Assembly (NCBI GenBank): GCA_018820765.1
Contig: JAHJNN010000012.1
Coordinates: forward strand, 62,001-126,000
Direction of reading: 5' to 3'
Origin: Gammaproteobacteria bacterium
GTDB taxonomy: Bacteria; Pseudomonadota; Gammaproteobacteria; Burkholderiales; Thiobacillaceae
Length of the DNA: 64,000 nt
Part shown: positions 3,713 through 29,958 of the stretch, in pieces
Numbering within the stretch: the stretch's first letter is position 1
Layout of the letters: the number at the start of each line of letters is the position of its first letter
Notes under the pieces: generated by a model
What the model was told of the DNA's origin: nothing
Seen by the model: the letters and a program-made list of their open reading frames with translations, nothing else
Database searches by the model: none
Translations under genes and position numbers: made by a program

Positions 3713-5539
3713 TCAGTGCGTGCATGGCAGCACGCCCACTTGCGGCAGCTCGGCCAGTCCGGTAGCGCGCGCGTGTTCCTCGAAACCCTTGTTGCGCCAG
3801 AAGAAGGCGCCCGGCATCGTGGTCGGGATCACCAGCACGTAGAACAGCGCGCGGCCCACCAGCGCGCTGGAGACGACGATCGCCGCGAGTGCACTCCAGG
3901 CGAGCATGCCGTCGTAGCCGGTGACAGCAAGCGCGAGTGCGATGCTCAGTGCGGCGGCCATGCCGGTATTGCGGGCGATCCACGCGTAGCCGAAATCGGT
4001 GCGCTGCAGATAGTGCGCGGCCGCGCCCTCGCCGCCGGTTTTCTGCAGATGGCGCACATGGAACGCCAGGCCCACGCCTTCCAGAATCACGCCCAGCGCA
4101 ACGAATCCGGCCAGCGGCGCCAGCAGCGCGGCCGCCGCTTCGCCCTGCGCCCACAGCATCCAGCCGTAGGGCAGCGCCACCGCCAGCGCGCCGAGCGCCA
4201 GCATGCTGCCGTAGAAGCTCGTCAGCACCTGCCAGTGATTCCAGAACGGACGCGCGGGGATGCGGTAGATGCGCGACATGAAGTACAGCGCCGCCGGGCC
4301 GGCCACGGCCGCGCCCCAGCCGCAGGCTTGGCCGATCCCTTGCGCCCAGCCAGCCGGCAGCCAGACGAACGCGCCGGACAGCGCGGTGAACAGCGTGTAT
4401 CCGCCGAGCAGGTTGTAGAACACCGCGATCACCGCCACTTCGCGCGACACCGGCGAGTAGCGCAGGTTGTTGAAGGCGCGGTAGAAGCGGTGCGGCCGCC
4501 CGAGGTGCAGGGTGGAGAGCACCAACGCGATGGTCTCAAAGCCCAGCAGCGCGATCAGCAGCGTGGCGTGTAGTGCCGGATGGACGGAGGGCGAAAGTGC
4601 GGCGATGCCGAGTTTCCCGCCGAGGAACAGCAGCAGGAAGGCGCCGACCACCAGCTGCGACACCAGGGTGAAAATCACCAGCGGGTCTTCGCGCGAGCGC
4701 AGCTTCTTCAGGTTCCAGGCGCGCGGACGGCCGTCTTCCGCCACCTTGGGGCGGTATGCCTTGGTCGCGTCGTCGCGTTCGTAACGCAGCGGCATCGAAT
4801 CGGTGCGGCGCATTTCGCGCGGCAGGCTTTTCGCCTGCTGGAAGCGGATGTTGGGGTGGGTGATCTCGGGGCTGGGAAAGCCGGGAATCTGCGCGTCGAG
4901 CATTTCGCGATGTGCCGGCGTGGTCTCGATCACGCCGAAATCCAGCGCGCCCGCCAAGCAGGCCGAGGCGCACGCGGGCTTCAAGCCGACTTCGAGGCGG
5001 TCGACGCACATATTGCATTTCGACACGTGGCCCGCTTTGGTGTCGAGCTGCGGCGCGTTGTAGGGGCACACCCAGGTGCAGTAGCCGCAGCCGAAACAGA
5101 TGTCGGGGTCCTGCAGCACCGCGCCGTATTCGGCGAACTTGGTGTAGGCGCGCGTCGGGCAGCCCTTGAGGCAGACCGGGTCGTCGCAGTGGTTGCACGC
5201 CATCGAGATGTTCATGCGCGTGGACGAGGGGAAACTGCCGCCCTCCAGGTAGCCGACCGAGCGGAAGGCGATGTGCGCGGGCAGGTCGTTCTTTTCCGAG
5301 CACGCAGCTTCGCAGGCGTGGCAGGCAATGCAGTTGTCGGCGTTGAAGTAGAAGCCGTGCTGCTTGTAGCGGTCGGGGTTGTCGCCGATGCCAAGGTCAC
5401 CGTTGATGCGCAGGCTCTTGCCGGCGAGCGGATCGGCGGCGTCGACCAGTTCGATCGGCTTGCCGTAGCGGTTGGTCTCGGGATGTGCCGTGTCGGGCAG
5501 CCAGGCGTAGTCGCGTTCTTCGGGGCGGGGTTCGAACAT
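3713..5539 (-). CDS. Fused four-cluster ferredoxin / DmsC-type membrane anchor
   Basis: 608 residues that join two proteins usually separate. Residues about 60-230 form a DmsB/NrfC-like electron-transfer module with four cysteine groups (CIACHACEAAC, CNHCDDPVCLKGC, CFGCGYCTWVC, CNMC...CASAC), enough for four [4Fe-4S] clusters. Residues about 285-600 are a polytopic DmsC-like anchor with about eight hydrophobic helices. There is no Tat signal, so the iron-sulfur part should face the cytoplasm. The gene lies 13 bp after the molybdopterin subunit. The pair probably passes electrons from quinol to a cytosolic molybdoenzyme; nitrate as the acceptor is inferred from the operon. Confidence 0.85.
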   Translation of the reverse strand: MFEPRPEERDYAWLPDTAHPETNRYGKPIELVDAADPLAGKSLRINGDLGIGDNPDRYKQHGFYFNADNCIACHACEAACSEKNDLPAHIAFRSVGYLEGGSFPSSTRMNISMACNHCDDPVCLKGCPTRAYTKFAEYGAVLQDPDICFGCGYCTWVCPYNAPQLDTKAGHVSKCNMCVDRLEVGLKPACASACLAGALDFGVIETTPAHREMLDAQIPGFPSPEITHPNIRFQQAKSLPREMRRTDSMPLRYERDDATKAYRPKVAEDGRPRAWNLKKLRSREDPLVIFTLVSQLVVGAFLLLFLGGKLGIAALSPSVHPALHATLLIALLGFETIALVLSTLHLGRPHRFYRAFNNLRYSPVSREVAVIAVFYNLLGGYTLFTALSGAFVWLPAGWAQGIGQACGWGAAVAGPAALYFMSRIYRIPARPFWNHWQVLTSFYGSMLALGALAVALPYGWMLWAQGEAAAALLAPLAGFVALGVILEGVGLAFHVRHLQKTGGEGAAAHYLQRTDFGYAWIARNTGMAAALSIALALAVTGYDGMLAWSALAAIVVSSALVGRALFYVLVIPTTMPGAFFWRNKGFEEHARATGLAELPQVGVLPCTH

Positions 5540-7736: not shown

Positions 7737-7751
7737 GCTGGACCTCCCCGA

Positions 7752-10247
7752 TCAAACCGAAAGCGCTTCGAATTCGTGCTTCGCCTTGCCCTCCTTGGCG
7801 CGTTCGAGCCACGGGTCGCGCTCGACCGACAGCGCGAACAGCAGGCGCTCGTACAGCGCGCGCCGGCCTTCGGCGTCGTCGAGGACTTTCTTCTTCACAT
7901 AGTCGAGGCCGACTCGTTCGACGTAGTGCACTGTGCGGTCGAGGTAGCGCGCCTCTTCGCGATACAGCTGCAAAAACGCGCCGGAATACTCGAGTACCTC
8001 GTCGGGCGTTTTCACCTTGACCAGGAACTGCGCGACCTCGGTCTTGATGCCGCCGTTGCCGGCGACATAAATTTCCCAGCCGGAATCGACGCCGATGATG
8101 CCGACGTCCTTGATCGCGACTTCGGCGCAGTTGCGCGGGCAGCCGGACACCGCGAGCTTGACCTTGTGCGGCGCCCACATCTTGAAAAATGTCTTTTCCA
8201 GATCGATTCCCATCTGGGTCGAGTTCTGGGTGCCGAAGCGGCACCATTCGGAACCGACGCAGGTCTTCACCGTACGCAGCGCCTTGCCGTAGGCGTGGCC
8301 CGATGGCATGTCGAGGTCGGCCCATACTTTCGGCAGGTCTTCTTTCTTCACGCCCAGCAGGTCGATGCGCTGGCCGCCGGTGACGTGCACGGTGGGGATG
8401 TTGTATTTCTCCGCCACGGTGGCAATGCGGCGCAACTCGGAGGGCGTCGTGTTGCCGCCCCACATGCGCGGAATCACCGAATAGGTGCCGTCCTTCTGGA
8501 TGTTGGCGTGGGCGCGCTCGTTGATGAAGCGCGACTGCGGATCGTCCTCCGCCTCGCCCGGCCAGGTCGAAATGAGGTAGTAGTTGAGCGCCGGGCGGCA
8601 GCTGGCGCAGCCGTTGGGCGTGCGCCATTCCATGAACGCCATCACCTGAGGGATCGTCAGGAGTTTGTTCTGGCGAATCGCATCGCGCACAGCTTCGTGG
8701 GTATGGTCGGTGCAGCCGCATACCGACTTGGTCTTGGGCGTGGCGGAATAGTCGCCGCCTGCGGTCACCGCGAGGATCTGCTCGACCAGCCCGGTGCACG
8801 AGCCGCACGACGACGACGCCTTGGTGTGTTTCCTCACGTCTTCCAGCGTGAACAGGCCCTTCTCGCGGATCGCCTTGACGATGTCGCCCTTGCACACGCC
8901 GTTGCAGCCGCAGACCTCCATATCGTCGGTCATCGTCGCGGCCTTGTTGATGCCCTGGTGGCCGAGGTTGCCGCAGTGGTCCTGGCCGAACATCAGGTGG
9001 TCGCGTAGCTCGGACACGTCCTTGCCGTCGCGCAGCAGCGAGAAATACCAGGCGCCGTCGACGGTGTCGCCGTACATCACGCCGCCGACCAGCTGGTTGT
9101 CCTTGATGACGAGCTTCTTGTAGACGCCGCCGATGGGGTCGGAATAGAGGATGGACTCGGTGCCCTCGCCGCCGATGAAGTCGCCGGCGGAAAAGAGGTC
9201 GATGCCGGTGACCTTTAGCTTGGTCGAGGTGACCGAGCCCTGGTAGCGGCCGATGCCGTATTGCGCCAGATGGTTTGCGCACACCTTGGCCTGCTCGAAC
9301 AGGGGCGCTACCAGGCCGTAGGCGACGCCGCGGTGCGCGGCGCATTCGCCGATGGAATAGATGCGCGGATCGAAGGTCTGCATGGTGTCGTTGACCACGA
9401 TGCCGCGGTTGCAGTGCAGCCCGGCCGATTCGGCAAGTTCGGTGTTGGGGCGGATGCCGACCGCCATCACGACCAGATCGGCGGGGATCTCGTCGCCGTC
9501 CTTGAATTTTATGGAGGTGACGCGGTTTCCACTTCCCCTCTCCCCAACCCCTCCCCCGCTTGCGGGGGAGGGGCTAGAAAGCAGTTCGGCGGTCTGCTTC
9601 TGCAGCAGGAACTTCATGCCCTTTTCTTCCAGGCTCTTCTGCAGCAGGCGCGCGGCGGGCTCGTCGAGCTGGCGCTCCATCAGCCACGGGGCGATGTGCA
9701 CCACGGTGACGTCCATGCCGCGCTTCATCAGGCCGTTGGCGGCTTCCAGGCCCAGCAGGCCGCCGCCGATGACGACGGCGTGCTTGTACTGGCTGGAGGC
9801 GCGGATCATCGCGTCGACGTCGGCGATGTCGCGGAAGCTGATGACGCCGGGCAGGTCGGACCCCGGCACCGGCAGAATGAAGGGATTGGAACCGGTGGCG
9901 AGCAGCAGGCGGTCGTATTCGGCGCGGGTGCCGTCTTCGGCCACCACACAGCGGGCCGAGCGGTCGATCTTCACCACCTTTCGGCCCATGTGCAGGGTGA
10001 TGTTGTTGTCCTGATACCAGTCGAGCGGGTTCAGCACGATGTCGTCGACCGTCTGCTCGCCTGCGAGCACCGGCGACAAGAGGATGCGGTTGTAGTTGGG
10101 GTGCGGCTCGGCGCCGAACACGGTGATGTCGTAGAGGTCGGGCGCCAGCTTCAGCAGCTCTTCCAGCGTGCGCACCCCGGCCATGCCGTTGCCGACCATG
10201 ACGAGCTTCATCTTGGGACCGCGTCCCATGGGCGTACTCATATCCAT
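7752..10247 (-). CDS. nirB: Nitrite reductase [NAD(P)H] large subunit
   Basis: 831 residues. Domains in order: an FAD/NADH pyridine-nucleotide oxidoreductase (MVGNGMAGVRTLEELL at the start), two BFD-like [2Fe-2S] segments (CGCNGVC...CGSC about 467-484; CGC...CASC about 507-549), and a sulfite/nitrite reductase module with siroheme-[4Fe-4S] cysteines in CVGSEWC (about 659) and SGCPRNC (about 703). It reduces nitrite to ammonium with NirD. Residues about 222-239 (SSPSPASGGGVGERGSG) are an extra low-complexity loop encoded by an inserted palindromic repeat, in frame. It is the first gene of the cluster behind a sigma-54 promoter. Confidence 0.95.
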   Translation of the reverse strand: MDMSTPMGRGPKMKLVMVGNGMAGVRTLEELLKLAPDLYDITVFGAEPHPNYNRILLSPVLAGEQTVDDIVLNPLDWYQDNNITLHMGRKVVKIDRSARCVVAEDGTRAEYDRLLLATGSNPFILPVPGSDLPGVISFRDIADVDAMIRASSQYKHAVVIGGGLLGLEAANGLMKRGMDVTVVHIAPWLMERQLDEPAARLLQKSLEEKGMKFLLQKQTAELLSSPSPASGGGVGERGSGNRVTSIKFKDGDEIPADLVVMAVGIRPNTELAESAGLHCNRGIVVNDTMQTFDPRIYSIGECAAHRGVAYGLVAPLFEQAKVCANHLAQYGIGRYQGSVTSTKLKVTGIDLFSAGDFIGGEGTESILYSDPIGGVYKKLVIKDNQLVGGVMYGDTVDGAWYFSLLRDGKDVSELRDHLMFGQDHCGNLGHQGINKAATMTDDMEVCGCNGVCKGDIVKAIREKGLFTLEDVRKHTKASSSCGSCTGLVEQILAVTAGGDYSATPKTKSVCGCTDHTHEAVRDAIRQNKLLTIPQVMAFMEWRTPNGCASCRPALNYYLISTWPGEAEDDPQSRFINERAHANIQKDGTYSVIPRMWGGNTTPSELRRIATVAEKYNIPTVHVTGGQRIDLLGVKKEDLPKVWADLDMPSGHAYGKALRTVKTCVGSEWCRFGTQNSTQMGIDLEKTFFKMWAPHKVKLAVSGCPRNCAEVAIKDVGIIGVDSGWEIYVAGNGGIKTEVAQFLVKVKTPDEVLEYSGAFLQLYREEARYLDRTVHYVERVGLDYVKKKVLDDAEGRRALYERLLFALSVERDPWLERAKEGKAKHEFEALSV
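9534..9575. repeat. CCCTCTCCCC-type palindromic repeat inside nirB (copy 1)
   Basis: The element contains a perfect 12-bp stem, 9548-9559 with 9562-9573, and a 2-base loop. The left flank CCCCTCTCCCCAAC is shared with the copy at 50684-50723, and a third, diverged and inverted copy lies at 31374-31414. It falls inside the nirB reading frame without breaking it. Confidence 0.8.
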
Positions 10248-22278: not shown

Positions 22279-22415
22279 CGCAGGTCTGTCGCCCGGCCGC
22301 GATTCTGCGGCGAATTGACTTTTCGCATGGAAAATCAAGGCTATGGTGTGATATATACGTGCGCCCTGGCCGGCCGGGCGCCGCTCAGGGCACATAGCGT
22401 CCGGCGAGACGCGCA

Positions 22416-22502
22416 ATGTTCAAAAAAATCGAAGAATGGAAAGTGATGTACCCAGGTCGACCGCAAACTGACGTCCCACAGGGCAAGGACGTCATCCAAT
22501 GA
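22416..22502 (+). CDS. Possible 28-residue ORF coupled to the Crp/Fnr gene
   Basis: ATG 22416 opens a frame MFKKIEEWKVMYPGRPQTDV... of 28 codons. Its TGA overlaps the regulator's ATG as ATGA, a typical translational-coupling arrangement, and the regulator's own AAGGA ribosome site lies inside it. The ribosome site of the small ORF itself (GGCGAGACG) is weak. It is too short for homology; it may be a coupling leader. Confidence 0.4.
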   Translation: MFKKIEEWKVMYPGRPQTDVPQGKDVIQ

Positions 22503-23203
22503 AGTCAAATTGCACCAACCCGGCGTGGATCGGCCGCGCGGAATGCGCCGTGTGCGATGTGCGCGGCTTCGTCCTGTTCTCAGGCTTGTCCACCCTCGAA
22601 CTGGATGCGATTCTGCAGCCCATCGACAACCTGCGCGTGCCGCAAAATGCGGTGCTTTACGAGCAGGATTCGGCAGCACCCTGCGTCTATACCCTGCGCA
22701 GCGGCCTCATCAAGCTCAAGGTCGACCTGCCCAACGGCGGCCGGCGCATCGTGCGCCTGCTGCGCCCGGGCGACGTGGCGGGGATGGAAACGCTGGTGGG
22801 CGAACGCTACCACCACACGGCCGTCGCCTTGCAGGACGCCGATGTCTGCCGCATTCCGCGCGAGGTGGTGCTGCGGCTGGACCAGACCAATCCGGCGGTT
22901 CACCAGGCATTGATGCGACGCTGGCAGCGCTCGGTCGATCAGGCCGATCATTTCATCGTCGCGCTGTCCACCGGCTCCGCGGAAGCCCGCATGGCACGCC
23001 TGCTGATCACCTTGGGCTGCACCGGCAGCCAGCCTGACACCTCGATGCCAAGCCGCGAGGACATGGGGGCGCTGCTCGGCATCACGACCGAAACGGCCAG
23101 CCGCGTCGTCGCCGAATTCAGACGACGCGGCCTGATCCATATCGAGAAAGGCGATTGCGTCGCCTATGACCACGCCGGCCTCACCCGTCTGGCGCAGGGG
23201 TAA
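22499..23203 (+). CDS. Crp/Fnr-family regulator with FNR-like cysteines
   Basis: 234 residues. The cyclic-nucleotide-binding-like domain spans about 25-140 and the C-terminal HTH is SREDMGALLGITTETASRVVAEFRRRGLI, where E..SR resembles the FNR recognition helix. Cysteines at 5, 16 and 19 plus C117 (DVCRIPREVV) parallel the three N-terminal Cys and C122 of FNR, although N-terminal spacing differs, so an oxygen- or NO-sensing iron-sulfur cluster is possible. AAGGA lies 9 bp before ATG. An FNR-type box sits just downstream before the next gene. Confidence 0.88.
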   Translation: MKSNCTNPAWIGRAECAVCDVRGFVLFSGLSTLELDAILQPIDNLRVPQNAVLYEQDSAAPCVYTLRSGLIKLKVDLPNGGRRIVRLLRPGDVAGMETLVGERYHHTAVALQDADVCRIPREVVLRLDQTNPAVHQALMRRWQRSVDQADHFIVALSTGSAEARMARLLITLGCTGSQPDTSMPSREDMGALLGITTETASRVVAEFRRRGLIHIEKGDCVAYDHAGLTRLAQG

Positions 23204-23234
23204 ACCGCGTTGCTTATTTGATACGTTTGTCTGA

Positions 23235-23248
23235 TTGACAAATATCAA
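23235..23248 (+). promoter_or_regulatory. FNR-type box upstream of the large outer-membrane protein
   Basis: TTGAC-AAAT-ATCAA matches the FNR consensus TTGAT-N4-ATCAA at 9 of 10 positions with exact spacing. It lies 125 bp before the ATG at 23373 and 32 bp after the Crp/Fnr gene, so that regulator is the obvious candidate to bind it. Confidence 0.65.
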
Positions 23249-23372
23249 TTACGTGAGGCTGCCCGGAAAGCCGTTTAAACTCGCGCGCAGTCGGAATTCT
23301 TTCCATCAGCCGACTGAAAATCAAGAACAGGGCGTTGCGCCGTCATGGAACGGCCGCCCTCAGGGAGTCCGA

Positions 23373-26060
23373 ATGAAACTTGCATTAAAGCCGCTGGCCG
23401 CGTGCATGGCCACGCTGTTCGGCGTCACGCCATTCAATGTGTGCGCCGCCCCGCCAGCCCCGCCCCCGGTTCAGAACCAGAACGCGAATACCACCCCGCA
23501 GGGCAACGGCACCTCGGACGCCCCGCTCCCCCCGGTGCGGGCGACCCGCCTTATGGCGGCGCTCCTGCCCGCCCAGGCGCCCGAGTTCCCCGGCATCGCC
23601 TGGGGTTCGTTCCTGGTGTACCCGGATGTTTCGCTGGCCGCCACCTACGACGACAACATCTACGCCGAACGCACCAATGTCACCGAAGACGTGATCTACA
23701 CGCTGTCGCCGTCGATCGAGTTCAAGTCCCGCTGGCAGCAGCACGCGCTGAACTTCGACCTGGGTGCGGATTTCGACCGCTACCGGAACAACGGTGCGGA
23801 AGACGTCAACGATCTCTGGCTGGGCTTCGACGGCCGCTATGACCTGGGCGCGCGCACCAACGTGTTTGGCGGCGCCCGCCACTCGCGTGATCACGAAGAC
23901 CGCTCGGTCCCCGGCGCGCTGAATCCGACTGCACAGGCCGAACCGACCCGTTACGACCATGGCGAGGCACACTTGGGCCTGGCCCACGCTTCCGGCGCAT
24001 TCCGCCTGCGCGCCGGCGGCACCTGGGACCAGTACGATTACAAGGATGGCGTTTCCGGCCTGGGCGTGGCAATCGACAACGATTATCGCGACCACGAACT
24101 GAGTTCGCTGGGCGTGCGCCTGGGCTATGTGCTTTCGCCCGTCTATGAGGTTTTCGGCCAGCTTGCCACCGACACGCGCGAATACGACCGGCAGATCCCG
24201 ACCCAAACCTTCAACCGCGACTCGGACGGCATCCGCGCCGCGGCCGGTGTGAAGTTCAATCTGCAGCCCCAGCGCCTGGCTGGCGAAGCCTTCGCCGGCG
24301 TGATGCGCCAGAACTACGATCACAGCGGCTTCTCCGATCTCAGCAAACCGTATTTCGGCGCGCTGGCCGTATGGAAACCGACGTCGACGCTGACCGCGAC
24401 CGGCTTCATCGACCGTTCGCTGGAAGAAACCACCGTCTTCACCACCATTCCCGCCACCGTCTATTCCTCCGGCTCGCTCGACACCACTTACGGCTTCGAG
24501 GTGGAGCGCCGCCTGACCAGCAAGCTGTCTGTCGGCGGCCGCGCCGCCTACACGCGCAGCGATTTCCAGAACTTCGACCGCAGCGACACCATCGTCGATG
24601 CCGGCGCCGGGCTGCGCTACTACGTGATGCCGACGGTGTACGTGGGCGCCGATCTGCGCGTGATCGACCGCGACTCCGACAACCTCGATGCGCAATACAG
24701 CCGCAACCAGCTGTTTGTCAGCGTCGGCTACACCCCGGCGCGCAATCGCGATTACTCGATCATTCCCGAGCGGGAGGCTGGCGCACCCGCCGCGCCGCGC
24801 CCGCAGGGCGTATTTTCCGGCTTTTATCTCGGCGCCCAGCTGGGCCACGGCGGGCTCACCACCGCAACCTTCGGGCCGCGCGACGGCGGCGGCTTCGATG
24901 CCGCCGACATGGGTGGCTTCGGTGCGAGCTACGGACTGTTCGGCGGCTGGGGAACCGAGATCGACAACGGGTACCTCGGCCTCGAGCTCGATGCGGGCGA
25001 CAGCAGCGCCAACTGGTACCACAAGAAGGACAAGCCCGAGGCCCCCACCGTGTATGTCGACAAGGACGCCAGCTATGGCCTGAGCGCCCGCGCCGGCTAC
25101 CAACTCGAAGGCGGCCTGCTGGTCGGCAAGCTGGGCGTGGTGAGCACCCGCTTCCACACCCACTACGCGGAAAACCAGTTTGCGGCCGGCGCCTTCGACC
25201 AGACGCACCGCGAGACCGGCATGCGCATCGGTCTTGGCCTGGAAATCCCGGCTTCGCGCAATCTGTTCGTGCGTACGGATTACAGCGTCACCCGCTACGA
25301 CGGGTACAACGTGCCCTACCAGTCCGACGTCGCTGCAACCACAACGGAAACCTTCGACACCGACGACGCCGTATTCAGCCTCGGCGTCGGCTGGCGCTTC
25401 GGCGGCACCCGTCCGCACGTGGCCTCCCGCTCGGCCACCGAGCTGCGCGGTCTCTACCTGGGCGCCAGCCTCGGCCACGACACCCTGGGCACCGAGCTGA
25501 CCGGCACCCATTTCGATCAGAGTGTGGGCCCCTATGACTTCACCGGCGATTTTGCCGACGCGGGTTTCACCGGCGGCTTCTTCGCCGGCTACGGCCACAC
25601 CTTCAGCCAGATCTATGTCGGCCTGGAACTCGACGCCGAGGCGTCCAACCTCGCCTGGAATCACAATCGCGAAACCGGTGGCGGCGGCGGCCGTGAATTT
25701 GCGGTGGAGAAGCGCGGCAGCTACGGTGCCGGCCTTCGGGTCGGGTACGTGCTCGACAACGGCGGCCTGCTGTACGGCCGCATCGGCGCGGTACAGACCC
25801 GCTTCAACACCATTTACAACAAGGGTGCAGGCGCGGCCAACTGGATCGACCGCAGCGACACGCTCGACGGCACACGCATCGGTTTCGGCGCCGAAATCCC
25901 GGCTTCGGAACACGCCTTCGTCCGTATGGACTACAGCTATACCCGCTACACCGATTCGGTCGACTTCGTGACGACGCACAACGGCGGAGCCAACCCGGAC
26001 GACATGCACTTCGAGAACAGCGAAAGCCTGGTCCGCTTGGGTCTAGGCTTCCGTTTCTGA
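23373..26060 (+). CDS. Three-barrel outer-membrane protein, function unknown
   Basis: 895 residues from ATG 23373 (AGGGAG 5 bp upstream). A signal peptide ends near CAA-PPAPPP (residue 26), followed by a Pro/Asn linker. Residues about 70-470 look like a BBP2-type porin barrel (YPDVSLAATYDDNIYAERT, repeated aromatic beta strands). Residues about 478-670 and 687-895 are two Omp25/opacity-like barrels that repeat each other: GFYLGAQLGHG and GLYLGASLGHD at their starts, GLEIPASRNLFVRTDYS and GAEIPASEHAFVRMDYS near their ends. It ends in aromatic GLGFRF, the BamA-recognition type. Followed by secreted-protein genes. Confidence 0.75.
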   Translation: MKLALKPLAACMATLFGVTPFNVCAAPPAPPPVQNQNANTTPQGNGTSDAPLPPVRATRLMAALLPAQAPEFPGIAWGSFLVYPDVSLAATYDDNIYAERTNVTEDVIYTLSPSIEFKSRWQQHALNFDLGADFDRYRNNGAEDVNDLWLGFDGRYDLGARTNVFGGARHSRDHEDRSVPGALNPTAQAEPTRYDHGEAHLGLAHASGAFRLRAGGTWDQYDYKDGVSGLGVAIDNDYRDHELSSLGVRLGYVLSPVYEVFGQLATDTREYDRQIPTQTFNRDSDGIRAAAGVKFNLQPQRLAGEAFAGVMRQNYDHSGFSDLSKPYFGALAVWKPTSTLTATGFIDRSLEETTVFTTIPATVYSSGSLDTTYGFEVERRLTSKLSVGGRAAYTRSDFQNFDRSDTIVDAGAGLRYYVMPTVYVGADLRVIDRDSDNLDAQYSRNQLFVSVGYTPARNRDYSIIPEREAGAPAAPRPQGVFSGFYLGAQLGHGGLTTATFGPRDGGGFDAADMGGFGASYGLFGGWGTEIDNGYLGLELDAGDSSANWYHKKDKPEAPTVYVDKDASYGLSARAGYQLEGGLLVGKLGVVSTRFHTHYAENQFAAGAFDQTHRETGMRIGLGLEIPASRNLFVRTDYSVTRYDGYNVPYQSDVAATTTETFDTDDAVFSLGVGWRFGGTRPHVASRSATELRGLYLGASLGHDTLGTELTGTHFDQSVGPYDFTGDFADAGFTGGFFAGYGHTFSQIYVGLELDAEASNLAWNHNRETGGGGGREFAVEKRGSYGAGLRVGYVLDNGGLLYGRIGAVQTRFNTIYNKGAGAANWIDRSDTLDGTRIGFGAEIPASEHAFVRMDYSYTRYTDSVDFVTTHNGGANPDDMHFENSESLVRLGLGFRF

Positions 26061-26092
26061 ACGGGACCGCACAGAAAATTTACGTGGGGACA

Positions 26093-26106
26093 TTGCGATT
26101 AATCAA
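26093..26106 (+). promoter_or_regulatory. Weak FNR-like box before the 383-residue secreted protein
   Basis: TTGCG-ATTA-ATCAA keeps one perfect FNR half and three of five bases of the other, at the right spacing. It lies 115 bp before ATG 26221, close to the distance seen for the better box at 23235. Confidence 0.4.
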
Positions 26107-26220
26107 TGTCATTTTTAAAAGGACTGACTACTCTTAAATCGTAGTTCGAAGCATCTTGTTTCCGGCTGCAAAGCCGGGGAAGGGTGAAACAAGTCTTGAT
26201 TCTCAACAGTGGAGCGATAA

Positions 26221-27372
26221 ATGAAAAACCCCGCATTCAATTTCAAAAAACTGATTCTCGCCGGTGGCACCCTGTTTACCATGCTGGCCGTTCCGATGAC
26301 CGTCAACACGGTTAGCGGTCTGGATCTGGGCGTGATTTCGTCCGCTCAGGCAGCCGAGGACGGCGGTGCCAACAAGGGTGGTGCCAACAAGGGCGGCACC
26401 CAGAAAGGCGCGGCCAACAAGGGCGGCCAGGGCACGGGCGGTTCCGCGAGCAACAAGATTTTCCGCGCGCCGGCGGCGGGTGAAGAAGAGGACAGCGACC
26501 GTCCGGTGTGGGCCGGGGTGAAGGGCGGCAAGGCAGGCGGCGGCGGCAAACCGGCCGGCGCCGGCAGCAAGAAGGGTGACCTGTTCGGCGACATGGTCGT
26601 GCTGCTGCGTGATGCCAACGGCGTGCCCATCCTGACGTCCGGCGGCTTGGTGCAGGTCATCGCGTATGTCTACGACTCGACCGGCGCGCTGGTTCCGCTG
26701 AAGGACGCATCCGGCAATCTGGTGGTGATTCCCTACGTGGGCGACGAACTGGCAACCACAGTCACGCTCGGCGGCGTCACGTACGACGTCTACGGCGCCG
26801 AAGTCGAGCTGGGCCGTCTGAGCGTGGGCCGCGCACCGACCAAGGTAACCGATCACGCGCTGGCGGAAGCGCTGAGTAAGCTGGCTTCCGGCACCGTGAC
26901 ACTCGACGCGTCCGGCCGCCTGGTGGTGAATGGCGTGACGATCGACTCGCCGCTGGAAAACCTGGCGCTGTATGACGCGTATATGACCGGAGCGCTGCCG
27001 TCGACGCTGACGCTGCCGGCCGGCTTCAACCCCGCGTCGTTGCTGGCGGCCGCGGCCGACAAATATGGCACCGTCACCGTGGACACCGTGATCTACATGA
27101 ACTCCATCCTGGGGATCAACACCACGAGCAGCTACTACGACTTCTCCACCTACAGCTACGATCGCTACACCACCTGGAAGGACAAGACTGCGACCGTGCT
27201 GGTGCTGAAGGATGGCGTCTATGTTCCCACCGTGGTCAATCTGTACGATGCCGTGTTCAGCAGCACCAACTGGACCGACCCGACTGCAGTGGGCGGCGCG
27301 GACGACTTCGCGACGGCCACGAACGATTTCGTGCAGGTGATCGAATTCATCCACGACAACGAAGTTCGTTGA
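26221..27372 (+). CDS. Secreted Gly/Lys-rich protein, function unknown
   Basis: 383 residues. A long signal peptide ends at SSAQA-AEDGG (residue 44). Next is a repeated basic segment (NKGGANKGGTQKGAANKGG) with KIFRAPAAGEEEDSDRPVWAGVKGG, then a globular part with short Val/Thr/Leu-rich beta-like stretches (DMVVLLRDANGVPILTSGG, VVIPYVGDEL) and VELGRLSVGRAPTKVTDHALAEAL. It has no cysteine. I do not recognise a named family. It follows the three-barrel outer-membrane protein and precedes a His-rich secreted protein that shares the KIF motif, so a cell-surface or extracellular role is likely. Confidence 0.7.
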   Translation: MKNPAFNFKKLILAGGTLFTMLAVPMTVNTVSGLDLGVISSAQAAEDGGANKGGANKGGTQKGAANKGGQGTGGSASNKIFRAPAAGEEEDSDRPVWAGVKGGKAGGGGKPAGAGSKKGDLFGDMVVLLRDANGVPILTSGGLVQVIAYVYDSTGALVPLKDASGNLVVIPYVGDELATTVTLGGVTYDVYGAEVELGRLSVGRAPTKVTDHALAEALSKLASGTVTLDASGRLVVNGVTIDSPLENLALYDAYMTGALPSTLTLPAGFNPASLLAAAADKYGTVTVDTVIYMNSILGINTTSSYYDFSTYSYDRYTTWKDKTATVLVLKDGVYVPTVVNLYDAVFSSTNWTDPTAVGGADDFATATNDFVQVIEFIHDNEVR

Positions 27373-27378
27373 CCGGTT

Positions 27379-27402
27379 GACTGGGCGGCGTGCCGCCCAG
27401 TC
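27379..27402 (+). repeat. Intergenic hairpin between two secreted-protein genes
   Basis: GACTGGGCGGC (27379-27389) pairs perfectly with 27392-27402. There is no T run after it, so it is more likely an mRNA-stabilising or partial-attenuation hairpin than a full terminator. Confidence 0.6.
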
Positions 27403-27426
27403 TGTTGCACGCACAGGAGTTCAGTT

Positions 27427-27744
27427 ATGCATGCTTACAGCAAATGGGCAACGATGTTGTTGCTGGCTGCGGGCCTGGCAACGGCAAACGTCACCACGTA
27501 TGCGGCCGACAGCCACGACGACGGCCACTCCTCCGGCCACACCGGCGGTGGCAAGGGCAAGGGGCCGAAGTACATGGGCGGCGACCGTGGCAGCAGCCAC
27601 AGCAGCAGTTCCCACAAGGGCGGCAGCTCCCACCATGACAGCTCGAGCGGAGGCAGCAAATCCGTGGAAGGAAAGATTTTCCACGCGAAATCCGGCGGCC
27701 ATGAGGATGGCCATGACGAAGGCGGCACCGAGCACAGCCATTAA
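27427..27744 (+). CDS. Small secreted His/Ser/Gly-rich protein, function unknown
   Basis: 105 residues from ATG 27427 with AGGAG 8 bp upstream. The signal peptide (MHAYSKWATMLLLAAGLATANVTTYA) is followed by a low-complexity mature part rich in His, Asp, Ser, Gly and Lys (SHDDGHSSGHTGGGKGKG, HSSSSHKGGSSHHDSSS, GGHEDGHDEGG). The composition would suit divalent metal binding. VEGKIFHAKSGGHED echoes NKIFRAPAAGEEED of the preceding gene. A perfect terminator follows. No family is recognised. Confidence 0.7.
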   Translation: MHAYSKWATMLLLAAGLATANVTTYAADSHDDGHSSGHTGGGKGKGPKYMGGDRGSSHSSSSHKGGSSHHDSSSGGSKSVEGKIFHAKSGGHEDGHDEGGTEHSH

Positions 27745-27762
27745 TCGAGGCACATTGCAGTG

Positions 27763-27798
27763 AAAAGGGGCGCACGGTTCGTGCGCCCCTTTTCTTTT
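27763..27798 (+). terminator. Rho-independent terminator after the His-rich gene
   Basis: A perfect 13-bp stem AAAAGGGGCGCAC (27763-27775) with 27781-27793, a 5-base loop GGTTC and the tail TTTTCTTTT. It closes the transcript of the outer-membrane and secreted genes. Confidence 0.9.
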
Positions 27799-27956
27799 GC
27801 GGCCGCAGGCTTGAAACACATTGCCACATTCTGAAACGGACGGGACACCCCGCATTCCTAAGATGCGTCACATCAGCAGACGCGGGCGCAATGACAAGCG
27901 AACGCATCACGCTGGATGACACGCCCTCTCTTTTTTTCTTTCAAAGGAATCCGGTT

Positions 27957-28127
27957 ATGAAAAGCGTTCTTCAAGTTGCAGTGCTCACCTCCCTGCTCGC
28001 CTCCTTTTCGGCTTTGGCCCATCACCCTGCCGCGGACATCGTCGACGAAGAGATCTACCTGATGATCGATGAAAACGTGGCGGGCACCCCGCATGCCGAT
28101 CTGGATTTTTCCAGCATGGGGCGCTGA
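27957..28127 (+). CDS. Tiny secreted protein, function unknown
   Basis: 56 residues from ATG 27957; AAAGGAA lies 9 bp upstream. The signal peptide MKSVLQVAVLTSLLASFSALA is clear, leaving a 35-residue acidic mature peptide (HHPAADIVDEEIYLMIDENVAGTPHADLDFSSMGR) with two N-terminal histidines. It has its own upstream region (about 210 bp after the previous terminated gene) and its own terminator. No family is recognised; it may belong with the preceding secreted proteins. Confidence 0.6.
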   Translation: MKSVLQVAVLTSLLASFSALAHHPAADIVDEEIYLMIDENVAGTPHADLDFSSMGR

Positions 28128-28634: not shown

Positions 28635-28859
28635 TTAACCTTGGCAGCACCCGCCCTGTTTGCTGGAAAGCTGAATCGGCGGGCACGGCACCGTTCCGTA
28701 GGAGCAGAACACGCAGCAGTCCCCCGGCAGCGGCATCAGCACCGTATGACATCCCTCGCATTCGTAATACCACTGGCAGGCGTCGGTGGGCATGGTCTCG
28801 GTTTTCACATGGCCGCAGAGCGGGCAGGTCAGGGCGGATTCTAGAATGACGGCGCTCAC
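28635..28859 (-). CDS. GDCCVxC-domain protein of the mer cluster
   Basis: 74 residues starting at a GTG (28859) that overlaps the merP stop as GTGA. Cysteine pairs CPLCG and CEGC form a zinc-ribbon-like part, followed by the hallmark GDCCVFCSYGTVPCPPIQ and a terminal GGCCQG. Proteins with this motif are known as GDCCVxC (seleno)proteins and occur next to mercury or stress genes; the Cys form is present here. The function is not established, but ten cysteines in 74 residues suggest soft-metal or thiol chemistry. Confidence 0.8.
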   Translation of the reverse strand: MSAVILESALTCPLCGHVKTETMPTDACQWYYECEGCHTVLMPLPGDCCVFCSYGTVPCPPIQLSSKQGGCCQG

Positions 28860-29146
28860 CGGTTCGCACCTTTGACCGACGACGGATAGCCGGCATCGGC
28901 GGTAGCGCGGGTCAGTTTCGCCACATCGGTTTTGGCGTCGTCGAAGGTGACGGTCGCCTGCCGATTTTCGTAATCGACTTCGGCCTTGCCGACGCCTTCC
29001 ACTTTGCTCAGGGCCTTTTTGACCGTGATCGGACAGGCTGCACAACTCATGCCCGGCACGGCCAGGGTGACGGTCTGCTGCGCCGCCAGGGCGGGAGTGA
29101 ACAGCGGGGCCAACACGGCCGCAAGCCAGATGGATTTGTTCATCAT
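28856..29146 (-). CDS. merP: Periplasmic mercuric-ion binding protein
   Basis: 96 residues: a signal peptide ending ALAAQ (about 22) and one heavy-metal-associated domain with GMSCAACPITVKKAL, the MerP form of the GMTCxxC metal site. MerP captures Hg(II) in the periplasm and passes it to MerT. The gene lies 6 bp after merT and overlaps the following GDCCVxC gene by 4 bp, so the three form an operon. No merA follows within the window. Confidence 0.93.
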   Translation of the reverse strand: MMNKSIWLAAVLAPLFTPALAAQQTVTLAVPGMSCAACPITVKKALSKVEGVGKAEVDYENRQATVTFDDAKTDVAKLTRATADAGYPSSVKGANR

Positions 29147-29152
29147 GTCTCC

Positions 29153-29491
29153 TCAATAGAACAGCGATGCGTACCAGGGAAAAGCCAGCAGGAGCAGCAG
29201 GGGGATGGCAACCAGCCAGAAAATCTGACGCTGGCGGCGCATGACCGTGGCGTCGGCACAGGGTTTGCCCGGTTCGCACACAGCGGGTTTCCGATACAGC
29301 GTGCGCCATGCCAGAACCAGCAGCCCGAGCGTGAGCGCGACGAAAACCGGGCGCACCGGCTCGAAGCGGGTCAGTGTGGACAGCCACGCGCCGCCCACCC
29401 CGAACGTGACGAGCACGAGGGGCGCGACGCAGCAGAGGGAGGCGCCGATTGCGGCCAGTGCGCTGGCGAAGAGCGGCAATTTGGTATCCAT
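29153..29491 (-). CDS. merT: Mercuric transport protein
   Basis: 112 residues with three hydrophobic helices. The vicinal cysteines [11 protein letters not shown] in helix 1 and the cytoplasmic pair CEPGKPC (about residues 75-81) are the MerT Hg(II) relay. It takes Hg(II) from MerP across the inner membrane. It is the first gene of the operon, behind a MerR-type operator and divergent from merR. Confidence 0.92.
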
Positions 29492-29520
29492 CGGTCTTTC
29501 CGGATGACTGCGATGGACGT

Positions 29521-29552
29521 AGGATAGGTTCCGTACCCAAGTACGGAGTCAA
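29521..29552 (-). promoter_or_regulatory. MerR-type operator/promoter of merTP
   Basis: On the minus strand TTGACT (-35; 29547-29552) is followed by the dyad CCGTAC-ttgg-GTACGG and then CTATCC/TATCCT, giving a 19-20 bp spacer. An overlong spacer carrying a dyad is the mark of MerR-controlled promoters, which MerR-Hg untwists. Confidence 0.88.
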
Positions 29553-29553
29553 G

Positions 29554-29958
29554 ATGCAGACCTTCACCATTTCCGGACTGGCGCAGGCGGCGGGCGTCAA
29601 CGTCGAGACGATCCGCTTCTATCAGCGCCGCGGCCTGCTGGCGGAGCCCGACAAGCCGCTGGGCGGCATCCGCCGCTACGGAGAAGCCGAGGTGGCGCGC
29701 GTGCTGTTCATCAAGGCGGCGCAGCGCATCGGCTTCACGCTGGACGAAGTGGCCCAGCTGCTGCAGCTGGACGACGGCACGCAGTGCGCGGAAGCCCGGG
29801 CGATCGCCGAGCACAAACTCGCCGACGTGCGGGCGCGGCTGGCCGACCTGCAGCGTATCGAGACGACGTTGACGCAACTGGTCGAGCGCTGCGCGACAAA
29901 GCGGGGCAAGGTCTGCTGCCCCTTGATCGCCGCGCTGCAACCCGCGCCCGCGCGCTGA
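29554..29958 (+). CDS. merR: Mercury-responsive regulator
   Basis: 134 residues from ATG 29554. N-terminal winged helix ([26 protein letters not shown]), then a long dimer helix. Cysteines 78, 113 and 122 have the same 35 and 9 residue spacings as C82, C117 and C126 of Tn501 MerR, the trigonal Hg site; C121 is an extra neighbour. It therefore should sense Hg(II), not another metal. It is divergent from merTP across the operator. Confidence 0.93.

Follow-up and report, generated by a model that had tools for sequence, protein, structure and literature searches.

A conserved locus with FNR-type boxes encodes a predicted multi-barrel outer-membrane protein and putative secreted proteins in Thiobacillaceae: a candidate low-oxygen surface module

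We analysed 64,000 nucleotides of a Thiobacillaceae genome (GenBank assembly GCA_018820765.1, contig JAHJNN010000012.1, positions 62,001 to 126,000; hereafter the window), which contain a locus for a Crp/Fnr-type regulator, an 895-residue outer-membrane barrel protein and three proteins of 383, 105 and 56 residues, named P383, P105 and P56. The source genome comprises 3.44 Mb over 18 contigs, and a genome search found P383 in single copy. Comparison of related sequences confirms the barrel-P383 locus and indicates that its genes are for the most part kept together. We tentatively favour the reading that it is a cell-surface module induced by low oxygen (or nitric oxide), with the barrel protein as anchor, and consider the chance of this to be somewhat below even. 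The open reading frames (ORFs) that a first-pass annotation had listed from the DNA were all present at the positions given.

Conservation of the barrel-P383 locus

A contig scan recovered 18 loci with a P383 relative (loci and genomes carry our L and G numbers), mostly from Thiobacillus and other Hydrogenophilales, which also hold the nearest relatives; further loci came from Pseudomonas oligotrophica (L016), a sphingomonad (L017), Parvibaculum (L018) and Anderseniella (L019). The set is present in Thiobacillus thioparus DSM 505 (L008). A barrel relative lay directly upstream of P383 in all 18, split over two frames in L005. The regulator was found in 11 of the 18; L003, L005, L009 and L019 end before its place, and L016, L017 and L018 have no regulator within about 17 kb. 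These 11 loci share the gene order regulator, barrel, P383, P105 and then P56, the last being a remnant in L012.

The P383 set is patchy but wide in distribution. P383 matches were obtained in 4 of 398 genomes drawn across the phylum (source genome included), in 20 of 100 genomes of the family and in 18 of 292 genomes of one alphaproteobacterial order; none was found in plasmid records. A match in G565 of that order was discarded as a false positive within the S4 domain of what we take to be a pseudouridine synthase, and the second match in G519 (L080) is doubtful.

The first-pass annotation had proposed co-occurrence as a check, and this check held in the family sample of 100, where P383, the barrel and the regulator occupied nearly the same genomes. 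The barrel profile matched the same 20 genomes as P383 and additionally G406, where the match was partial (profile positions 675-881 only, E 1.7e-24). In 19 of the 20, barrel and P383 are neighbours within a contig, and in G489 each sits at a contig end. The regulator (E 1e-30) was detected in 19 of the 20, and also in G458 and G481; G445 gave no regulator match, and its contig ends inside the barrel gene.

In G458 (L098 3311-4343), the regulator is followed immediately by P56 and then by a queD-like stretch, an arrangement that matches the window except for the missing barrel, P383 and P105. Because G458 and G481 keep the regulator and P56 without the set, barrel-P383-P105 behaves as a cassette that is sometimes missing between them. 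We favour loss of this cassette rather than its never having been gained, since the distant loci L037, L038 and L039 have regulator and set together.

Table 1. Features of the locus (window positions)
Feature	Position	Strand	Remarks
Weak FNR-type site TTGACTTTTCGCAT before the regulator	22315..22328	+	4 mismatches; seen by eye in alignment
18-codon ORF	22446..22502	+	Conserved part of a 28-codon ORF (22416-22502); ATGA, 4-nt overlap with the regulator start
Crp/Fnr-type regulator, 234 residues	22499..23203	+	
FNR-type box TTGACAAATATCAA before the barrel gene	23235..23248	+	1 mismatch
895-residue outer-membrane protein	23373..26060	+	BBP2_2 barrel and two OMP_b-brl barrels (predicted)
FNR-type box TTGCGATTAATCAA before P383	26093..26106	+	2 mismatches
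P383	26221..27372	+	Signal-peptide-like start, Gly/Lys/Ala-rich region with KIF motif, conserved C-terminal domain
P105	27427..27744	+	Signal-peptide-like start, Gly/Ser/His-rich, KGPKYMGG and KIF motifs
Terminator-like hairpin, then T run, after P105	27767..27793	+	Seen by eye; absent from the terminator scan list
P56, 56-residue secreted peptide	27957..28127	+	Probably a neighbour, not core

FNR-type boxes and promoters

Boxes were sought with the consensus TTGAT-N4-ATCAA, and counts refer to sites with at most two mismatches unless stated otherwise. Ahead of the barrel gene, 15 of 16 loci had a box (not L011), and ahead of P383 again 15 of 16 (not L016), against a background of 0.46 sites per kb in ten Thiobacillus loci; in a wider locus set, the barrel gene carried a box in 8 of 12 loci, four counted already. 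The barrel-gene box is one of three sites with at most one mismatch in the 64-kb window. The first-pass annotation had placed boxes before the regulator and the barrel gene. The latter was confirmed, whereas the regulator is preceded in the window only by the weak site with four mismatches; the box before P383, a third FNR-type site, had been overlooked. Seven of 15 loci, window not included, have a box before the regulator, and some relatives carry TTGAT-N4-CGCAA at the position of the weak site. No site was found in 6.5 kb around the G458 regulator; the 8 kb around that of G481 contained six, none with at most one mismatch.

The centre of the P383 box lies 29.5 nt before TACTCT (26129-26134), which would place it at -41.5 if TACTCT is the -10 element, a position that we take to be that of class II promoters. 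A class II position is described for FNR promoters in the available text of PMC7713065. The 29.5-nt spacing to a TAnnnT hexamer was observed in 14 of 15 Thiobacillaceae loci. By the same measure, the barrel-gene box lies at -46.5 to -48.5 in 10 of 11 loci, which is not canonical. A simple scan called 0 sigma-70 promoters, with 0.8 expected.

Boxes were also enriched in the alphaproteobacterial P383 frames. Over -300 to +200 of the open frame, sites with at most one mismatch occurred in 11 of 18 frames, compared with 4 of 136 controls drawn from the other ORFs of these loci; the Fisher p of 1.8e-9 overstates independence because the sequences are related. The controls came from a greedy ORF caller, include doubtful ORFs and are probably poorer in promoters than true genes. 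With two mismatches allowed, the counts were 16 of 18 and 28 of 136. Not among the 18 frames are L035 and L071 (truncated upstream, without a site at one mismatch or fewer), the doubtful L079 and L080, and also L017 and L018 (no site); with the last two the first count becomes 11 of 20. FNR-type control of the barrel and P383 genes, which the first-pass annotation had read as control by oxygen or nitric oxide, is well supported at the sequence level by the conserved boxes, the predicted class II spacing at P383 and the invariant cysteines of the regulator.

The regulator and its upstream ORF

The regulator scored above cut-off for PF00027, PF13545 and PF00325 (Pfam). It reached 73.2 bits with the Fnr model PRK11161 (NCBIfam), below the cut-off of 228, and is therefore not filed as Fnr itself. 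It resembles FNR/ANR oxygen sensors in its domains, in a C-x2-C pair with a later cysteine, in an E..SR helix and in the FNR-like boxes. Cysteines C5, C16, C19 and C117 were invariant in all 15 aligned sequences; C16, C19 and C117 correspond in the alignment to three of the four cysteines of a solved FNR, V25 stands in place of the remaining one, and the upstream C5 is invariant instead. The recognition helix reads TETASR, compared with VETISR in the FNR alignment. By analogy with FNR, the cysteines presumably serve as cluster ligands, and the E..SR pattern presumably belongs to the recognition helix.

In 11 of 15 loci, a short ORF of 18-19 codons that begins with ATG ends 4 nt inside the regulator gene. 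In L006, the 18-codon ORF overlaps by only 1 nt, and the more distant L037, L038 and L039 of these 15 have no ATG-started overlapping ORF. The first-pass annotation had described a 28-codon ORF coupled to the regulator; the overlap (4 nt, ATGA) held, whereas the 28-codon start was not listed in any other of the 15 loci, and the ORF was replaced by the 18-19-codon one. Its peptide sequence is poorly conserved despite the kept overlap, and translational coupling of the regulator is possible.

The barrel protein

Pfam assigned residues 74-452 of the 895-residue protein to a single BBP2_2 domain (PF10082; 289.3 bits, gathering score 23.7), besides OMP_b-brl (PF13505) stretches. The AlphaFold2 model, built from 15 sequences, was of moderate confidence (predicted local distance difference test, pLDDT, 73.5; predicted template-modelling score, pTM, 0.60) and showed two stretches of about 8 strands each besides a first part, residues 80-453, with about 18. 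These counts and the Pfam assignments together suggest an 18+8+8 three-barrel chain, strand pairing not being seen, and agree with the earlier proposal that this protein is the outer-membrane component. The top Foldseek match was MtrB, with a template-modelling score of 0.17 and a root-mean-square deviation of 24.8; such matches to solved folds are generic for barrels, and no function was assigned from them.

The protein was also similar to EpsL (E 1.3e-11, 44.1 bits, cut-off 275) and TIGR03016 (E 3.3e-10, 39.5 bits, cut-off 90.85) in NCBIfam, in both cases below cut-off, and had no PHROGs match at E 0.01. No match in plasmid records covered 80% of the query; eight records matched the large barrel domain partially. 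In L011, the first 26 codons of the barrel gene occur a second time (4803-4880, 65% identical) upstream of the intact gene.

P383 and its relatives

For P383 and P105, neither Pfam nor NCBIfam gave a match at a threshold of E 1, nor did PHROGs at E 0.01, and P383 matched no solved structure by sequence at E 1 or by fold at E 0.001. The first-pass annotation had found none of the proteins placeable in a named family, which stands for P383, P105 and P56; the regulator (PF00027, PF13545) and the barrel protein (PF10082, PF13505) do belong to such families. The AlphaFold2 model of P383 (19 sequences) was of moderate confidence (pLDDT 60.8, pTM 0.51). Residues 1-126, with pLDDT under 50, are read as disordered, and most of the remainder is predicted to fold as a mixed domain. 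Long and short forms of the family share the core signature EVELGRLxVxRxP..VL, IDSPLxNLA and DK.

The short form, which consists of the core only, was found in 11 loci with about 230-380 residues in the open frame, and a small barrel adjoins it in 10 of them. With the L070 barrel as phmmer query, those of L035, L071, L073, L076 and L077 were matched; those of L036 (other strand), L072, L074 (from the C-terminal tail) and L075 were recognised by eye. Pfam recognised OMP_b-brl in two of six small barrels scanned. The barrel protein itself bears a Gly/His-rich stretch in L072 and L075.

Long-form P383 occurs in nine genomes of the alphaproteobacterial order, with the barrel adjoining in six. In G546, an ORF that we take to be dihaem-peroxidase-like (L067 2583-4040, plus strand) precedes P383 by about 1.4 kb, and FNR-type sites with at most one mismatch accompany three further ORFs in the vicinity.

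In G412, there is no separate P105, and P383 itself carries P105-like motifs; the regulator-barrel-P383 set is flanked there by cytochromes, an octahaem protein of the tetrathionate-reductase family and a decahaem protein (L039 2551-4131, minus strand, and 7742-8569, plus strand). The decahaem protein comes near the DmsE family, with 175.8 bits against a cut-off of 192.2.

P105 and P56

Of the 79 residues of P105 beyond residue 26, 20 are Gly, 18 are Ser and 12 are His. The motifs KGPKYxGG and S-x-E-x-x-[VI]-[FL] recur in many of its relatives, outside which short motifs the protein is poorly conserved, and the Gly-rich arm of P383 holds similar motifs. This similarity between the Gly-rich stretches suggests that P383 and P105 may have a shared partner. 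The KIF motif common to the two proteins, reported in the first-pass annotation, was borne out in P383 (residues 79-81) and in P105 (residues 83-85); it recurs in relatives of both as KIF, KVF, NVF, RVF, RVL or GIF and is therefore not a one-off match.

P105 was present in 10 of 17 genomes scanned, all ten with the barrel; 8 of these 10 matches were rows of the search alignment itself, and those in G436 and G720 were not. It was thus found in 10 of 11 scanned genomes with this barrel (G412 lacking it) and in none of the three long-P383 genomes without barrel, G627, G546 and G535. The genome of L016 has both barrel and P105. In L034 (5381-6270, minus strand), a pair of genes adjoining the P105 relative resembles what we take to be an IS3-type transposase, a hint of mobility.

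Of the 20 module genomes, 14 have a P56 match at E 1e-30, G452 has a remnant, and the other five gave no match. It also occurs in G458 and G481, two of the 100 family genomes, both without P383. The view of P56 as a core part of the set was rejected on these grounds, and P56 is probably a neighbour. A site upstream of P56 was found in just 1 of 12 loci, though the peptide is conserved. Pfam and NCBIfam gave two families far below cut-off, and PHROGs gave no match at E 0.01; assignment to DUF6488 was rejected (11.9 bits, gathering score 27). A match in G440 (E 0.003) within a 1339-residue frame was taken as chance, and in G446 another copy of P56 is found outside the locus (L101 4564-4728, minus strand).

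Proposed function and alternatives

We propose that, upon oxygen loss, the regulator would activate the promoters of the barrel gene and of P383-P105. P383 and P105 would exit through Sec, and the barrel protein would hold them at the outer membrane or pass them through, where their Gly/Lys/His-rich arms and the conserved P383 domain might form a coat or matrix round the cell. Anchoring is favoured over export because the partner of the short form is one small barrel, probably too narrow for export, its narrowness being judged from length and, in two of six cases, Pfam.

Several observations weigh against this proposal. The barrel gene has no box in L011, L062, L063, L066 and L069, nor P383 in L016, L017 and L018, and the 29.5-nt spacing recurs in just 3 of 16 other loci (L036, L038, L072). 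The palindrome at the P383 box (26089-26110) was also terminator-like in the scan, which gave 5 such sites with 5.3 expected in shuffles, and could be a terminator after the barrel gene; we prefer to read it as an FNR box because half-sites and hexamer spacing are kept. The partnership itself varies: in G627, G546 and G535, long-form P383 stands without a barrel of this type (threshold E 1e-10), the partner in G412 is the large barrel only, no barrel was seen beside the short form in L078, and the genomes of L017 and L018 have the barrel but lack P105. Genomes and loci are moreover related, and the counts are not independent.

Among other explanations, we weighed metal or haem handling in the envelope, in which P105 and the His/Asp-rich arms of relatives would bind metal needed or released under anoxia and the barrel would be a pore. 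The His content of P105, the His/Asp-rich stretches in relatives, a CNNM-family gene upstream of the regulator in the window, L011, L015, G436 and G481, and the cofactors that denitrification requires would all fit it; the P383 arm here is Gly/Ala/Lys-rich and not His-rich, however, most loci have not kept the CNNM gene, P105 is variable beyond its short motifs, and the boxes identified are of FNR type, no search for Fur or Zur boxes having been made. We regard this explanation as unlikely. It is less probable still that the genes are only regulon neighbours, anaerobically expressed, functionally unrelated and kept together. P383 does occur without barrel in three genomes, and G458 retains regulator and P56 in the absence of the set, but the order barrel-P383(-P105) is kept across classes while flanks and regulator change, the type of partner barrel changes with the type of P383, and barrel and P383 are missing together in G458 and G481.

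Polysaccharide-type export, with the EpsL-like large barrel exporting a polymer and P383 and P105 as matrix proteins, would account for the sub-threshold similarity to EpsL and TIGR03016. The conserved genes include no polymer-synthesis or exosortase gene, and the small barrels beside the short forms are unlikely polymer exporters, which leaves this explanation slightly more improbable than the preceding one. A role in an extracellular electron-transfer apparatus for anoxia appears very improbable: the cytochromes around the G412 set, the putative peroxidase ORF in L067 and the MtrB match point towards it, but no multihaem cytochrome was noticed beside the set in other ORF lists, which were not searched systematically, and the MtrB match, at the score given above, is generic.

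Beyond the surface-module proposal for this locus, it is conceivable, though doubtful, that the set represents an undescribed class of oxygen-controlled surface assembly in Alpha-, Beta- and Gammaproteobacteria, in which a secreted family with the signature EVELGRLxVxRxP...IDSPLxNLA...DK would sit on an interchangeable barrel and build a protein coat under anoxia; a single three-barrel chain would be the most elaborate form of that barrel. If so, denitrifying and other facultatively anaerobic bacteria would remodel their surface by a dedicated protein system upon oxygen loss, and the Thiobacillaceae version would include a sensor of its own. Although unnamed in Pfam, NCBIfam and PHROGs, the P383 family occurs in three classes, in many cases with the same type of box, and one model strain would open the whole family. 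It also offers a natural case of an exchanged barrel partner (large and two small, large only, one small) with the secreted core kept.

Comparison with known systems

The nearest working analogue would be Fap of Pseudomonas (barrel FapF, fibre protein FapC), which likewise combines an outer-membrane barrel with secreted subunits of the biofilm matrix. FapF is described as a trimer of gated barrels with a helical plug and a coiled coil in the available text of PMC5557850. No sequence relation to Fap was seen, P383, P105 and the barrel having no Fap-named match in Pfam or NCBIfam (the Fap proteins were not compared directly); unlike Fap, the set has no conserved protease gene and has FNR-type boxes. 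The first barrel domain belongs to PF10082, as in the BBP2_2 proteins EpsL and TIGR03016 of PEP-CTERM systems, from which the present protein differs by two extra OMP_b-brl stretches and the locus by having no exosortase gene in its conserved part. Single chains that hold several outer-membrane barrel domains have reportedly been treated by Solan et al. 2021; more than one barrel per chain is the common feature, and the predicted 18+8+8 arrangement with secreted partners differs.

OmpW-type porins under FNR control, which are single barrels, offer a precedent for an outer-membrane barrel raised at low oxygen, as proposed for the set. In Dinoroseobacter, ompW showed the highest FnrL-dependent change of the envelope (PMC5398030), and in Sphingopyxis, a weaker precedent, it was anaerobically induced and missed the cut-off in the fnr mutant (PMC7713065); the available texts name no partners of the P383/P105 kind for OmpW. 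As to an Mtr-type conduit, Pfam showed no MtrA-type multihaem cytochrome among seven window proteins scanned, and a decahaem cytochrome lies nearby only in G412. At title and abstract level, we found no description of the set in the literature, most subscription journals being outside the scope of the search.

Neighbouring genes

Just past queD, positions 28856-29958 of the window hold genes that we take to be MerP- and MerT-like on the minus strand and MerR-like on the plus strand.

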